Below are positions 33,040-38,552 of a stretch of 64,000 nt of DNA, one piece after another. The position numbers and the translations under genes were made by a program. The notes under the pieces were generated by a model. The model was not told where the DNA came from. It saw nothing but the letters and a program-made list of their open reading frames with translations, and did not search any database. Numbering within the stretch: the first letter of the stretch is position 1; the number at the start of each line of letters is the position of its first letter. Source of the DNA: Armatimonadota bacterium (lineage in GTDB: Bacteria; Armatimonadota; Fimbriimonadia; Fimbriimonadales; Fimbriimonadaceae); contig JAEURN010000008.1 in the NCBI GenBank assembly GCA_016789105.1, forward strand, positions 310,001 to 374,000. The letters run 5' to 3'.

Positions 33040-33692
33040 TGGCTGTCCGGGGGGTCGTCTTCGATTTTGACGGCCTCATCCTCGATACCGAAACCCCTGA
33101 GTTCGAAAGCTGGGCGTGCGTGTTTGCCTCTCACGGTGCCACCCTGGAGCCTAACGAGTGGGCCAATTGTGTCGGAGGGGGCGAAGTGCCCTGGAAAGTA
33201 GAAGACCACCTGGCTGAACTGGTTCCAGGGATCGACGTTCGGGCCGCAGAAGCCGAAGTGAGGCGTATCCGCGATGCTCGGCTACTCGAAATCTCACCTA
33301 GGCCAGGAGTTTTCGAGATCCTTTCCCTGCTAGACGACATGCAGATCCCCTTTGCCATCGCTTCCAGCTCCCGGCATTTGTGGGTCGACGGCCATCTGCA
33401 AAACCATGGTCTGCGAGACCGGTTCCCGATCATTTGGACCGCAGACCGGGTGGGGGCAAAAAAGCCAGATCCCAAGGTCTACTTGGCGGCGGTCGCCGAA
33501 CTCGGGACAAATCCAGCCGAAACCTTGGCCTTTGAAGATTCGACCAACGGCCTCCTCGCCGCAAAGAGGGCCGGGATGGCGGCTGTGGCCATCCCCAACC
33601 CTGTCACAGCCTCGTTCGATCTCAGCCTGGCTGACCGCCGTTTGGAATCGCTCCTGCAGGCAGACCGCCGGTTTTTAGAACAGTTTGCCTAA
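33039..33692 (+). CDS. HAD subfamily IA hydrolase (beta-phosphoglucomutase-like)
   Basis: The 217-residue protein has HAD motif I VVFDFDGLILDTE (Asp9, Asp11), a helical C1 cap (about residues 16-85), motif II Ser in AIASSSRHLWVDGHL, motif III Lys in GAKKPDPKVYLAA and motif IV FEDSTNGLLAAKRAG. This arrangement fits beta-phosphoglucomutase and small phosphatases of sugar phosphates. The GTG start overlaps the TAG of the histidine kinase by one base, so translation is coupled; why a sensor kinase and a HAD enzyme would share a transcript is not clear. Its end overlaps the opposing gene by 4 nt. Confidence 0.86.
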   Translation: MAVRGVVFDFDGLILDTETPEFESWACVFASHGATLEPNEWANCVGGGEVPWKVEDHLAELVPGIDVRAAEAEVRRIRDARLLEISPRPGVFEILSLLDDMQIPFAIASSSRHLWVDGHLQNHGLRDRFPIIWTADRVGAKKPDPKVYLAAVAELGTNPAETLAFEDSTNGLLAAKRAGMAAVAIPNPVTASFDLSLADRRLESLLQADRRFLEQFA

Positions 33693-34357
33693 CCGGCCTT
33701 CTCAATCAAAATCGTGCCCCGGTCGGTTTTTGACCATTTGAGTTTTGCCGCATCGCAAATCACGTCAAGGGCATATTTGAGGCTCGTGTCGATCAAAAAG
33801 GCGTCCAGCTTGTAATCGGGCACCGATTCGCCGACTTCGATCTTGACCCCGGTCTGCCGGGAGAACTCTTCAAAGACTTTGCGGATCGGCGTCACGCTGT
33901 ACCGGGTTGTGAGGTGCTTCTGAAGCGCTTCGTCGGAGACGCGTCCTTTGGCCGGAGTTTCTGGTTGGCCGGTGTTTTCCGGGCGGGTCGGTGTGGGGTT
34001 CGGCTTGGCTGAGGTCGGCTTGGCCTGAGGTTTGGGACGGTTCTTCCCAATGTAATAGACGCCTCCTTTCACCTCATATCCGATTTCGGCATTCTGGACG
34101 ACGATATCTAATGCCTCTTGGAACGTGACCTCTTCCAGGTGGAGGTACAGCACCCAGCGGACCCCGGCATCCAGCACGAAATTGTGTCCGGATTGCCGGA
34201 ACAGTTCGTAAAGGACGCTGCGGACATCATCCCCTTTGGCCGAGATCGACACTTGCGGGCCATCCACGGCAACCGGGTTTGGCTTTACCTCTTCCTGGGC
34301 GGTGGCCAGGCATGTCATGGAAGCCAGGATGAGGGCGATCGGTGCGGCTAGTTTCAT
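33689..34357 (-). CDS. Secreted protein with two STN/secretin N0-like domains
   Basis: The 222-residue protein has a signal peptide (about residues 1-20, ending CLATAQ). Two related modules follow: the first (about 36-103) contains VRSVLYELFRQSGHNFVLD and the second (about 146-220) IRKVFEEFSRQTGVKIEV and DVICDAAKLKW. Both resemble the STN/N0 domain found in secretins and TonB receptors. They are joined by a Pro/Thr/Lys-rich linker (about 110-142). There is no secretin barrel, so it is not a channel; a periplasmic adaptor is more likely. It is the third gene of a set with the zinc-finger protein 21 nt upstream and the DnaJ-WD40 protein. Confidence 0.68.
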   Translation of the reverse strand: MKLAAPIALILASMTCLATAQEEVKPNPVAVDGPQVSISAKGDDVRSVLYELFRQSGHNFVLDAGVRWVLYLHLEEVTFQEALDIVVQNAEIGYEVKGGVYYIGKNRPKPQAKPTSAKPNPTPTRPENTGQPETPAKGRVSDEALQKHLTTRYSVTPIRKVFEEFSRQTGVKIEVGESVPDYKLDAFLIDTSLKYALDVICDAAKLKWSKTDRGTILIEKAG

Positions 34358-34378
34358 CGTTTTCTCTCTGTTTGGTCG

Positions 34379-35326
34379 TTAATGCACAGGTTTTCCGTGT
34401 TCATCATAAACTTTGATTCCGGATTTGGACTTTGGTTGGGTTGCCGCCGGTTTGGGTTTGGGGGATGGTTTCCGGGTTGTGGCCGGTTTGCGCGAAGTCG
34501 AAGTCCTTTGTGTTGGGGCCGGGGATTTCTTCGTTGTCACCGGTTTGGCGTTTGCCCCATTGCCCGCGGGCTTTTGTGCCGGTTCTTGAGGCTTCTTTTG
34601 ATTGTTGCCTCCGGCGACGATGATTCCGGAGTTCTGCAAAGTGGGTTCGCCCGGCACGCGGGGATCGGGCACGAGCTTTTCGGGGCCCTTCTGTTTCGGG
34701 ATCTCAGTCGTGGAGTGGTTGGGTTCGCCTTCCGGCTGCTTGTGATCTTCGACGGCTTCGGCTTCCGACTCCTTGGTTGGGGCAGGGTGCTTGGTGGTGT
34801 CGGCCTTCGGTTCGGTGTCATGGCCGGATTCCTCGGTTCCACCCCCGGCCGGATGCTCGTCTTTGGGCTCGGTGTAGGTTGCAGCGGCGGTATTGGAGGC
34901 GCGGGGGCCAAGGAGCGAAGTCGGGTTGCGCAAAAGGGTGCTCATCGCGATCAGCACCACAGCCAACGCGATGCTGAGGAACAAAACCTTGGGGTTTTTG
35001 AGGGCGGCAATCCCGGGAGCCGGGGCGGCGATGGCGAACGAAGCGGACCCAGAATGCATAAACGCCTGGGCTGGGCCGGCCATCGCGAGACCGGCTGGCT
35101 GGGCGCCCAGTCGAGACATCCACCCGGCCACGCCTTTAGCTTCCATTGGTCCGTCGAGCACTTCCTCAATCGATTTGTGCTCGTTGTTCAAAATCGCTTG
35201 ACAGCTGGGACATGCCCGCAAATGGCGCTCCAAATCATCAAGCAGCCCTTGGGGGAGGTTGTCCCCGTCCAAAAACCGCTTCATCAGAACGGTCGCGATC
35301 TGACACTCGATGTTTTTGACAGCCAT
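34379..35326 (-). CDS. Zinc-finger membrane protein with long basic Pro/Thr-rich tail (anti-sigma-like)
   Basis: The preferred start is ATG 35326 (MAVKNIECQIATVLMKRFLDG); an ATG 33 nt upstream is in frame too. An HX3CX2C element (ERHLRACPSC, about residues 36-45) fits the zf-HC2 zinc finger of anti-sigma factors. A single membrane helix follows (about 118-138, VLFLSIALAVVLIAMSTLL). The outer part (about 140-315) is low complexity, rich in Pro, Thr, Lys and Glu, and ends with GIKVYDEHGKPVH. No sigma-factor gene is adjacent, so an anti-sigma role is unproven. The 315-residue protein lies between the DnaJ-WD40 gene (95-nt gap) and the STN gene (21-nt gap). Confidence 0.68.
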   Translation of the reverse strand: MAVKNIECQIATVLMKRFLDGDNLPQGLLDDLERHLRACPSCQAILNNEHKSIEEVLDGPMEAKGVAGWMSRLGAQPAGLAMAGPAQAFMHSGSASFAIAAPAPGIAALKNPKVLFLSIALAVVLIAMSTLLRNPTSLLGPRASNTAAATYTEPKDEHPAGGGTEESGHDTEPKADTTKHPAPTKESEAEAVEDHKQPEGEPNHSTTEIPKQKGPEKLVPDPRVPGEPTLQNSGIIVAGGNNQKKPQEPAQKPAGNGANAKPVTTKKSPAPTQRTSTSRKPATTRKPSPKPKPAATQPKSKSGIKVYDEHGKPVH

Positions 35327-35421
35327 TCTTGATCCCGTTTGTGAGCTTTGAACCTGCATCCGCAGGCTTGCCCAATTGGATCATCGGCAAGGATCCACGA
35401 TCCTTTAGGCCTTCGCCAGCC

Positions 35422-36573
35422 TCAGGCTGCGCCGAGTTTCCACACCCGCAGCATCTTGTCCAAACCCCCTGCGGCCAAAAAGTGCCCATTCGGCGAAAAG
35501 GCCAGGCAGCTGATCGGTTGGTGGCTCGCCTCGATCTGCCCATGGCCGATGCCACGTTTGACGTCCCATAGCCCCACCGAGCCGTCACGGCTGGCGGTTG
35601 CCAAAAGCCAGGAGCGGGGGTGGAACGCCATGGCCTCGATCGGCCTGGAGTGGCCGTGGAACGTCTTGACCAAGCTCATGTCGCTGAGCTTGACGATCCG
35701 GATGCTGAGATCCACGGCGGCAACTGCCAGCCAGCGGCCGTCGGGACTGAACGAGATCGCCGTCACGGTGCTGATGATCCGGTTCACGGTGTGGATCTCC
35801 CTCCCCGAGCGCGGGTCCCACAACCGCACGGTGGCATCCGCGCTGCCGGTGGCCAAAACCCGGGAATCGGCCCGCCAAGCCAGCGCGGTCACCGACTCTT
35901 CATGGTTGAACACCGAAACTTCTGTAAAACCGTCCGCCGCCCTCGCAACATGGGCGCTCCGGTTGACCGTCCCATAAGCCAACAGTTTGCCGTCGGGCGA
36001 AGGGGCCACGCAGCAAACCCAGCTCTTTGGCGATTGCCGCCAGCTGGTCGCCTCGCCCCCCGGGCCCAAGGTCCAACAGCTCAGCAGCTGCTCGGTGCTT
36101 CCGGCGGCCACGACTCGGCCGTCGGCGGGAACGCCGATCGCGTTAACGACCCCCCCTTCGAACCGGTGGGTGTGTGCGCGGTGTTCCATTTTCGAGTCCC
36201 ACCAAATCACCTCGTTGTCAAACGACGAGCTCACCATCCGTCCCCCTGGTTCAAAAGCGATCCCGTAAACCGGGGTGCGGTGGTGGCGCAAACGTCGGAA
36301 AATTTCTGCCCGGACGGCTGTCGGGCGGCCCTGGTCGCCTTGGCGGGTTTCCCGTTCGGTTGCCTGGAACCCAATGCTGGAATCGTATTGCGACCGCCGC
36401 AACGGGTCGCTGAGAACCTCGAAAGCCACGTTGATTTCGGCCATGCGCTCATGCGCATCCAAAGCCGTGTTGACATCCGGGTGGAACTCGCGGGCCAACT
36501 TGTGGTACGCCTCGCGCACCTGCTTGGCATTGGATCGGTGGGATATCCCGAGGACGTCGTAAAGGGTCGCCAA
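35422..36573 (-). CDS. DnaJ-WD40 fusion protein
   Basis: Residues 1-65 form a J domain with the essential HPD motif at 31-33 (LAREFHPDVNT), so it should stimulate a DnaK partner. After a short linker, about residues 95-383 form a WD40 propeller of about seven blades. Typical units are VTALAWRADSRVLATGSADA, IEAMAFHPRSWLLATASRDG and ISCLAFSPNGHFLAAGGLDK, each followed by an LWD/VWK-type end. The usual DnaJ zinc-finger and C-terminal domains are missing. J domain plus propeller would target DnaK to propeller-bound clients. The start is TTG, 11 nt after a CATAAT box (36585-36590). First gene of the three-gene set. Confidence 0.87.
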   Translation of the reverse strand: MATLYDVLGISHRSNAKQVREAYHKLAREFHPDVNTALDAHERMAEINVAFEVLSDPLRRSQYDSSIGFQATERETRQGDQGRPTAVRAEIFRRLRHHRTPVYGIAFEPGGRMVSSSFDNEVIWWDSKMEHRAHTHRFEGGVVNAIGVPADGRVVAAGSTEQLLSCWTLGPGGEATSWRQSPKSWVCCVAPSPDGKLLAYGTVNRSAHVARAADGFTEVSVFNHEESVTALAWRADSRVLATGSADATVRLWDPRSGREIHTVNRIISTVTAISFSPDGRWLAVAAVDLSIRIVKLSDMSLVKTFHGHSRPIEAMAFHPRSWLLATASRDGSVGLWDVKRGIGHGQIEASHQPISCLAFSPNGHFLAAGGLDKMLRVWKLGAA

Positions 36574-36655: not shown

Positions 36656-37234
36656 ATGGACTTGGCGATGCCCATTCAACTGGTTGTGCCCGGAAGCCCG
36701 GCAAAGGGTGAATATCGAGGCCCCGGCTGGCCCGAATGGCTTCTGGGATTCGGTTGCACCATCTTGGCCGGAACCCAGTTGCGGAGCATCACCACGGTTC
36801 CCGACCCCCAAACCGCCCTGAGCTACTATTTTCAGGAGCCTTTTGTCCGCGCCTTCCACGCCAGCTCCTTGGGCATTGATTTTTTGGTTGTGCTGACGGT
36901 GGCCGCCTGGATCTTCCTGTGGCAGAAGTCTGAAGCCTGGGGCGCCCTGACTCTTGCCCTGTGCTTGGGCGGGGCTGCCCTCGGCTGGGCCGAATTGATC
37001 CGCGCGACGGTGCCCACCCCAGGCCGGGTTTACCTTTTGCAAGGCTTGCCCTTTAGCCCGGTGAACAACGGAGGGATTGCCGGAACAACATTGTTTGCCG
37101 GATACGCCACCACAAAAATCCCTCTTGGCACGCTCACCTTGCCCGCAAAAATCTTGCTGAGAATTGCCGCCTGCCTTGGCCTGTTCGTTGCCCAATGGAT
37201 CGTTTTTGAACAGATTGCCGCCCTCACACCATGA
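36656..37234 (+). CDS. Multi-pass membrane protein of unknown function
   Basis: The 192-residue protein has a strong Shine-Dalgarno GGGAGG (36642-36647) before its ATG. At least three hydrophobic segments are visible: about residues 75-90 (FLVVLTVAAWIFLW), 95-112 (ALTLALCLGGAALGWAEL) and 168-187 (IAACLGLFVAQWIVFEQIA). The segment between the second and third holds a Gly/Asn-rich turn (SPVNNGGIAG). I recognise no family. The last bases overlap the next start (ATGA), making a translationally coupled chain with the next two genes. Confidence 0.7.
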   Translation: MDLAMPIQLVVPGSPAKGEYRGPGWPEWLLGFGCTILAGTQLRSITTVPDPQTALSYYFQEPFVRAFHASSLGIDFLVVLTVAAWIFLWQKSEAWGALTLALCLGGAALGWAELIRATVPTPGRVYLLQGLPFSPVNNGGIAGTTLFAGYATTKIPLGTLTLPAKILLRIAACLGLFVAQWIVFEQIAALTP

Positions 37235-37737
37235 CCGAAGACACCGTCACCCGCATCCCCGACACCGATTCCAAGCCTGTCAAGGCTTTGTTCCTGGCAT
37301 TCTTCTTGTTGACCCCGCTCCTCGGGCTGGTCTACTTTTGGACCGACGGCCACGCCAAGATTCAACGCGAAGCAAAGGCGTTCGTTGAACGGGAGGTCAT
37401 CCCCGCAATGGTCAAGGGCGACAACCTGATCGACTATTCGGATCCCGGGCTCTGCGACAAAATCCGCGCCGGGGATTTCCAGTGGATTGCCACGGAGCTT
37501 GGCCCCTTGAAGTCCACGGAGCGCATCAGCGCCGACGAATCCCGGGCCGCCGAAGAAGACGACCGCGGGGTCATCTATGCCGAAGTGGACTTCACAGGAA
37601 AGTACGAGAAAGGGAACGCCCGCGTGAGCTTGGTCATCAAGAGGCAAAGCACCCCGGATGAACGCAATATGACACCCAAGGAAAGAGAACAGGAAGAGTG
37701 GGAGATTGTGGGGATGACGGTGACAAAGAGCGAATGA
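37231..37737 (+). CDS. Single-helix membrane protein of unknown function
   Basis: The 168-residue protein has a short cytoplasmic end, one membrane helix (about residues 20-38, LFLAFFLLTPLLGLVYF) and an outer domain of about 125 residues with mixed strands (GVIYAEVDFTGKYEKGNARV, WEIVGMTVTKSE). The domain looks like a small NTF2-like or DUF4864-like fold, but I cannot assign it. ATGA overlaps at both ends couple it to the membrane protein before and the DppA-type gene after it. Confidence 0.68.
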   Translation: MTEDTVTRIPDTDSKPVKALFLAFFLLTPLLGLVYFWTDGHAKIQREAKAFVEREVIPAMVKGDNLIDYSDPGLCDKIRAGDFQWIATELGPLKSTERISADESRAAEEDDRGVIYAEVDFTGKYEKGNARVSLVIKRQSTPDERNMTPKEREQEEWEIVGMTVTKSE

Positions 37738-38552
37738 AAGTCTACATTTCGGCGGATATCGAAGGGGTGACGGGTGTCGTCAATTGGAAGCAATGTGGGG
37801 CCCCGGATGGGAGTTGCTTTGACTGGGCGTTTGCCCGACGGATGATGACCCACGACGTGAACGCGGCAATCCGCGGGGCCAAGGCCGGAGGCGCAACGCA
37901 CATCGTCGTCAAAGATTCGCACAATGTCGGCCTCAACCTCCTCATCGATGAACTTGAGCCCGGGGTGGAGCTCATTTCTGGGTCACGGCCCGGCCCCGGC
38001 GGCATGATGGAAGGGATCGACCGGACATTCAACCGGGCATTTTTGGTCGGCTACCACGGAATGGCCGGCTCGACGGAAGGCGTTATGGAACACACGATCA
38101 GCGGCCGCGTCCACCGGTTGTGGATCGACGGGCGGGAGAGGGGCGAAATGGGCCTCTCAGTTTATGAAGCCGGCAGCCACGGCGTCCCGGTTGCCTTGGC
38201 CACATCCGATGATAAAGGTGTCGCGGAAGCAAAGTCCTTGGTTGCCAACATCGCAACGGCCACCACCAAGTTCGGAATGGGGCGTTACATGGCGCGGCTG
38301 CTCCACCCATCGGTGACCGGCCCGGCGATCGAATCGGCCGCCCGGGCGGCGATGGCGGCCTCCGTCGCGCCTGTGCAAACCAATCCGGGCCCCGTCGCCG
38401 AGCTGGAGTTTAACCGGAGCGAGGAAACCGACTCCGCTTCCCAACTCCCAGGTTGGACGCGGGTGGACGCCTACCGCATCCGGCAAGAATTTGCCAGCTG
38501 GCGGGACGCCCACATCGCCATCCGCAGGGCTATCAGTTTTGCCGGGTTGTGA
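37734..38552 (+). CDS. M55 family D-aminopeptidase (DppA-like)
   Basis: The 272-residue protein shows the zinc ligands of Bacillus DppA: Asp8 and Glu10 in ISADIEGVTG, His63 in KDSHNVG, His108 in VGYHGMAG and Glu138 in ERGEMGLS. The GSRPGPGGMMEGID stretch is also typical. DppA enzymes cut D-amino-acid dipeptides such as D-Ala-D-Ala released from peptidoglycan. The ATG overlaps the preceding stop (ATGA), and a 12-codon in-frame extension upstream is rejected. No signal peptide, so cytoplasmic. The 3' end overlaps the CPBP gene by 20 nt. Confidence 0.9.
   Translation: MKVYISADIEGVTGVVNWKQCGAPDGSCFDWAFARRMMTHDVNAAIRGAKAGGATHIVVKDSHNVGLNLLIDELEPGVELISGSRPGPGGMMEGIDRTFNRAFLVGYHGMAGSTEGVMEHTISGRVHRLWIDGRERGEMGLSVYEAGSHGVPVALATSDDKGVAEAKSLVANIATATTKFGMGRYMARLLHPSVTGPAIESAARAAMAASVAPVQTNPGPVAELEFNRSEETDSASQLPGWTRVDAYRIRQEFASWRDAHIAIRRAISFAGL

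Follow-up and report, generated by a model that had tools for sequence, protein, structure and literature searches.

What joins three genes that follow one another on the minus strand of a 64,000-nucleotide stretch of DNA (the window) from a Fimbriimonadaceae bacterium of the Armatimonadota (genome 2.75 Mb)? One encodes a J domain joined to a WD40 propeller, the second a zinc-finger membrane protein, and the third a protein with two STN domains. The original prediction, made from the sequence of the window, took the three for an undescribed trans-envelope sensing or assembly system. The answer developed here is that two of them belong together. The zinc-finger gene and the tandem-STN gene look like an ancient conserved membrane-sensing pair, and the DnaJ-WD40 gene is not part of their module.

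I will refer to the exported tandem-STN protein as STN2, and to its gene and the zinc-finger gene as the pair. The order under comparison is Fimbriimonadales. Families carry the labels of the genome search (f1, f2 and so on), f1 being the window's own family and f19 and f12 deeper families of Armatimonadota; G000 is the window's own genome. The named genomes nearest to the host are Uphvl-Ar1, BC.035, ACE_ARM7 and ACE_ARM8 (Fimbriimonadaceae/Armatimonadetes), and a search with the single STN2 protein gave six close relatives. All three open reading frames lie where the original prediction placed them, on the minus strand and with the domains it described (J domain and WD40, zinc finger, two STN domains), and all three have coding-like composition.

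Conservation of the Pair

Across the order, the STN2 gene lies directly 3' of the zinc-finger gene, on the same strand, in 48 of the 49 loci measured. The spacing between the two runs from a 44-nt overlap to a 30-nt gap; most loci fall between a 4-nt overlap and the 30-nt gap, and 20 have the 4-nt overlap. What flanks the pair varies by genus: a THUMP-like methyltransferase, DAHP synthase, an M3 peptidase, carbohydrate kinases and others. Adjacency of this kind is far beyond chance, and I regard the identity of the module, zinc finger plus STN2, as highly probable.

Gene order in relatives, a check proposed along with the original prediction, was run and divides the set. All three genes stay together in part of one genus only, but the zinc-finger and STN2 genes stay together throughout the order. 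Because the pair is adjacent order-wide and deeper families have the order sigma, zinc finger, STN (see below), trans-envelope sensing is supported for these two genes of the three, and not for DnaJ-WD40.

No adjacent sigma or secretin gene was recognised at the pair loci examined in the order. A scan for promoters and terminators gave no signal above chance, and NCBIfam has no named family above cut-off for either member of the pair. In f2, where the overlap is the 4-nt ATGA, a fusion of the pair by frameshift was considered and set aside: most overlaps come with an AGGAG-like start signal, and no obvious slippery site common to them is visible by eye. Six f2 genomes carry a gene for a B-box zinc-finger-like protein of roughly 150 amino acids 3' of the pair (e.g., L100:483-941, minus strand).

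The Zinc-Finger Membrane Protein

The reading frame of the zinc-finger protein encodes 326 amino acids, and relatives suggest that an internal ATG is the true start, leaving about 34379-35326. Its parts are as follows.

34379..35359 (likely true start 35326), minus strand: zinc anti-sigma-like membrane protein (zf-HC2; ligand pattern; anti-sigma structures)
35153..35311, minus strand: predicted zinc anti-sigma domain, residues 17-69, ligands C19, H46, C50 and C53 (profile, conservation, model)
34928..34993, minus strand: single membrane helix, residues about 123-144 (AlphaFold2 model)
34424..34927, minus strand: disordered Pro/Lys/Arg-rich tail, presumed periplasmic by inference (composition; predicted local distance difference test score, pLDDT, about 50)
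34382..34423, minus strand: C-terminal motif around IKVYDEHGKPVH, predicted small beta hairpin (conservation against shuffles; pLDDT)

The zinc finger, the one membrane helix and the Pro/Lys tail named in the original prediction are thus borne out. The zf-HC2 match itself (Pfam, 0.00038) falls just short of the cut-off. The ligand pattern Cx25-26Hx3Cx2C, however, is found in 49 of 50 relatives, the lone exception being a sequence cut at the start of its contig. The five best matches of the alignment profile in the PDB are all anti-sigma proteins: RsiW (2.4e-4), 3hug, DdvA and, twice, ChrR. The AlphaFold2 model has confident helices at residues 17-30, 37-49 and 51-69 and two short strands at the C-terminal end, and the sole structural match of the modelled domain is again RsiW (Z 6.2 over 56 residues, 1.8 A). 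The structural match and the profile matches together give the domain the helical fold of an anti-sigma protein, and the protein is therefore predicted to be a zinc anti-sigma domain on one membrane helix.

The tail is 15% Pro and 15% Lys plus Arg. Among 49 relatives it is not conserved outside a motif near its end: 44 of the 49 have [VI]x[VI][YF] among their last 45 residues, as against 0.29 in shuffled tails. AlphaFold2 gives this motif a pLDDT of 73-80, compared to about 50 in the rest of the tail.

The Cx25-26Hx3Cx2C domain and its helical fold are shared with RsiW, RslA, ChrR and RsrA, and RsiW has one membrane helix, as the zinc-finger protein does. Anti-sigma genes of the zf-HC2 type usually, though not universally, lie next to the gene of their cognate sigma factor. 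The protein considered here differs from those four in its very long Pro/Lys/Arg tail with the end motif, and its gene differs in having STN2 as a constant neighbour and no adjacent sigma gene.

The Exported Tandem-STN Protein

33689..34357, minus strand: STN2, two STN domains, exported (Pfam STN/FecR_C; AlphaFold2; signal peptide by hydropathy)
34040..34255, minus strand: STN domain 1, residues 35-106, nearest to secretin N0 and TonB-transducer signalling domains
33692..33916, minus strand: STN domain 2, residues 148-222, nearest to the C-terminal domain of FecR/PupR-type anti-sigma proteins

The 222 amino acids of STN2 comprise a signal peptide and two STN folds (Pfam STN/FecR_C), both modelled by AlphaFold2 at a pLDDT above 95 (residues 35-104 and 148-220). 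The two domains resemble different things. Domain 1 matches the N0 domain of PilQ by sequence (8.6e-8), and XcpQ (Z 10.4) and FpvA (Z 9.5) by structure. Domain 2 matches 4m0n (Z 11.9; 1.4 A over 73 residues) and PupR (6ovk; Z 10.7).

In fold and sequence, then, domain 1 is what STN2 has in common with the STN/N0 domains of secretin and pilus proteins such as PilQ, GspD and DotD. In contrast to these, STN2 lacks a secretin channel domain, its 222 residues holding STN domains only, and no pilus genes were recognised among the neighbours scanned beside the pair. The likeness nevertheless raises the thought that the pair no longer controls a sigma and now works in envelope assembly, for instance with its STN domains docked on a secretin or pilus machine, while the zinc finger holds some other cytoplasmic partner. 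The nearness of domain 1 to PilQ N0, the related STN proteins in pilus-like operons of f2 and the lack of an adjacent sigma gene all speak for it. I consider it unlikely even so, since 49 of 50 relatives retain the full set of zinc anti-sigma ligands, domain 2 is most like the C-termini of anti-sigma proteins, and the loci examined showed no recognisable pilus gene next to the pair.

Some families depart from the layout of STN2 in the window. A zinc ribbon of four cysteines stands at the C-terminus of STN2 in f2, f3, f4, f5, f12 and f19 (e.g., L087, L097, L100, L217, L225) but not in f1; in those of these families whose STN2 has a signal peptide, the ribbon would be exported. STN2 proteins without a signal peptide occur at the f2 loci L096, L099, L100, L101, L103, L105, L107-L111 and L114, where the partner is a membrane protein and the C-terminal ribbon is present. 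At five other f2 loci (L102, L104, L106, L113 and L115), the gene for a related exported STN protein has pilus-type membrane genes on one side and a secretin-like gene (about 545 amino acids) on the other.

Sigma Genes in Deeper Families and in the Host

The original prediction counted the lack of a sigma factor among the peculiarities of the locus. This is true of the window, but in distant relatives sigma genes do precede the pair. A gene for an extracytoplasmic function (ECF) sigma factor, with Sigma70_r2 and r4_2 domains, lies directly 5' of the zinc-finger and STN2 genes in f19 (seven loci) and f12 (L225 and L224). One Fimbriimonadales sigma per genome (in the host, G000:C4:455302-455826) is sister to these operon sigmas of f19 and f12, with a tree support of 97/99.

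I call this the orthologous sigma. At 12 of 20 loci annotated by automatic gene calling, it is followed by a gene here called c2, and direct reading of the frame shows the same in the host genome. The c2 product combines an N-terminal domain that lacks zinc ligands with a membrane helix, a Pro-rich linker and a single STN domain. Its C-terminus matches domain 2 of STN2 (hhalign, 98.1%, 1.3e-13) better than domain 1 (5.3e-6), and its N-terminus matches the zinc-finger domain weakly (77%, 2e-5). Outside the genomes that bear the sigma, matches to the c2 profile are STN-type stretches, including domain 2 of STN2. By its sequence c2 appears to be anti-sigma-like and to amount to the pair in fused form. 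The two share a membrane anti-sigma-like protein and an STN domain like domain 2, and they differ in that c2 is fused, lacks the zinc ligands and lies next to its sigma gene.

Might the pair still control the orthologous sigma together with c2, so that one sigma answers to a fused and a split anti-sigma? The sister relationship to the sigma of the deeper sigma-zinc finger-STN2 operon would suit this, as would the construction of c2, which is that of a fused pair. The occurrences do not suit it. The sigma and c2 are found without the pair in several Fimbriimonas-group genomes, and nine f1 genomes with the sigma have no strong match to STN2 (G128, G129, G130, G137, G139, G141, G142, G144 and G160). 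Conversely, the pair is found without that sigma in f2, f4 and genus g30. As sigma and pair do not co-occur, the presence profiles argue against service of the pair to the orthologous sigma, and shared control seems to me quite improbable. The search for a partner by orthology thus led to this sigma, which was then rejected for its failure to co-occur with the pair and for having a c2 of its own.

Other sigma factors are plentiful. The genome of Fimbriimonas ginsengisoli has about 30 rpoE-type sigma genes (PMC4072686). The claim that none of the three genes has its usual partner holds locally but not for the genome as a whole, which encodes DnaK (C3:1260-3044) and about 20 ECF sigma factors elsewhere. 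Several of the latter, among them L162, L163, L169, L175, L176 and L179, have no evident neighbouring anti-sigma gene and are candidate partners in trans.

The reduced genomes (1.5 Mb) of genus g30 (G036 and G164; L337-L340) keep the pair with only two recognisable ECF sigma factors. One has its own anti-sigma-like gene; the other is a divergent orphan that weakly matches an orphan sigma of the host (L163), and as a partner of the pair it is only a lead.

A Proposed Split Anti-Sigma Device

Known cell-surface signalling provides the closest analogy. There the signal is passed by contact between STN domains and by protection of the anti-sigma protein from proteolysis or its exposure to it; the anti-sigma protein uses its C-terminal STN domain to bind that of a partner, the two sharing a sheet, and FoxR functions as two pieces produced by cleavage (PMC11637429). 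FecR, PupR and FoxR have in common with the pair an anti-sigma domain, one membrane helix and a periplasmic STN fold, and it is their C-termini to which domain 2 of STN2 is nearest (Z 10.7-11.9). The pair differs from them in that its STN part is a separate exported gene product with two STN domains, its anti-sigma domain is of the zinc type and no sigma gene is adjacent.

With slightly better than an even chance, in my estimation, the pair is a split anti-sigma device, akin to those of cell-surface signalling and parted from its sigma gene. By this analogy the membrane half would hold the sigma factor and the exported half would sense; that the two proteins touch and that a sigma factor is bound is what I infer, and likewise the signal and the proteolysis. 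The zinc-finger protein would have its zinc anti-sigma domain in the cytoplasm, pass the inner membrane once, and extend a disordered tail, ending in a beta hairpin, into the periplasm. STN2 would be a separate periplasmic part, an exported chain that unites a transducer-like STN domain with one of the anti-sigma type. Whether the tail motif docks on STN2 I would call an even bet, and the most likely manner would be for the motif to join a sheet of STN2 as an extra strand. When STN2 senses an envelope signal, the membrane protein would then be exposed to proteolysis or protected from it, and the sigma factor would be freed or held. The expected target is an ECF sigma acting in trans; that the pair still binds a sigma at all seems to me fairly probable.

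Several observations weigh against this reading. The mismatch in occurrence between pair and orthologous sigma is one of them; another is that the Fimbriimonadales loci examined showed no sigma gene next to the pair. The Z-score of 6.2 for the match to RsiW is modest. In f2, STN2 lacks a signal peptide in each of 12 genomes, a misfit with a purely periplasmic STN2. A broader form of the split-device reading is possible, though I would not go so far as to call it probable: a phylum-deep two-gene anti-sigma of cell-surface signalling that has outlived its own sigma gene throughout the order and whose target is now either a different sigma, in trans, or no sigma at all.

How new is such an arrangement? 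The parts of the pair are known protein families, and the pair is a variant of sigma/anti-sigma signalling, so "undescribed" overstated the case as to kind. As far as the papers searched show, what is not described is the split two-gene form, the presence of transducer-type and anti-sigma-type STN domains on one protein, and the order-wide separation from a sigma gene. The literature search found no description of such a pair, which is weak evidence, as it covered open-access papers only. Envelope signalling in Armatimonadota has been little studied. The pair and its fused counterpart beside the old sigma would amount to a natural experiment on the transfer of a signal from STN to anti-sigma domains, and the pair would also illustrate how regulators outlive a sigma gene that was once adjacent.

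The DnaJ-WD40 Gene

35422..36573, minus strand: DnaJ-WD40 protein, a neighbour outside the conserved module (domains; limited adjacency)

The third gene begins with TTG and encodes 383 amino acids, with a J domain that has the HPD motif (Pfam, 2e-18) and six WD40 stretches (8e-48). A full-length relative is present in all 37 of the f1 genomes searched. It adjoins the zinc-finger gene in only six, however, all of the window's genus (G000 and G003-G007; in G007 the end of a contig cuts the zinc-finger gene). Two further members of that genus, G001 and G002, have it away from the pair, and so do the other genera examined. Moreover, the DnaJ-WD40 gene of G001, G011 and G032 is next to homologues of the LON-type, GAF-PAS kinase and HAD genes that border the three-gene set in the window, with no pair between, which indicates that the pair was brought beside it by rearrangement. 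By these comparisons of gene order, the position of the pair is the product of a recent rearrangement inside the window's genus.

A trans-envelope system of all three genes, with DnaJ-WD40 as its cytoplasmic arm, would draw on the common strand and close spacing in the six genomes of one genus, where a shared transcript is possible. Given that G001, G002 and the other genera examined have the gene in another place, that the neighbourhoods in G001, G011 and G032 point to rearrangement, and that the host genome has a DnaK for the J domain, I find such a system very improbable.

Divergent from DnaJ-WD40 in the window (36656-38552) are three genes, for a membrane protein, a protein of 168 amino acids and a D-aminopeptidase-like protein. 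These remain close to DnaJ-WD40 in several genera and perhaps form its true neighbourhood. In G006 (L118:8158-9198, matching Uphvl-Ar1), the zinc-finger gene seems to carry a frameshift close to its 3' end, and an in-frame TAG interrupts DnaJ-WD40; sequencing error is the likely cause.

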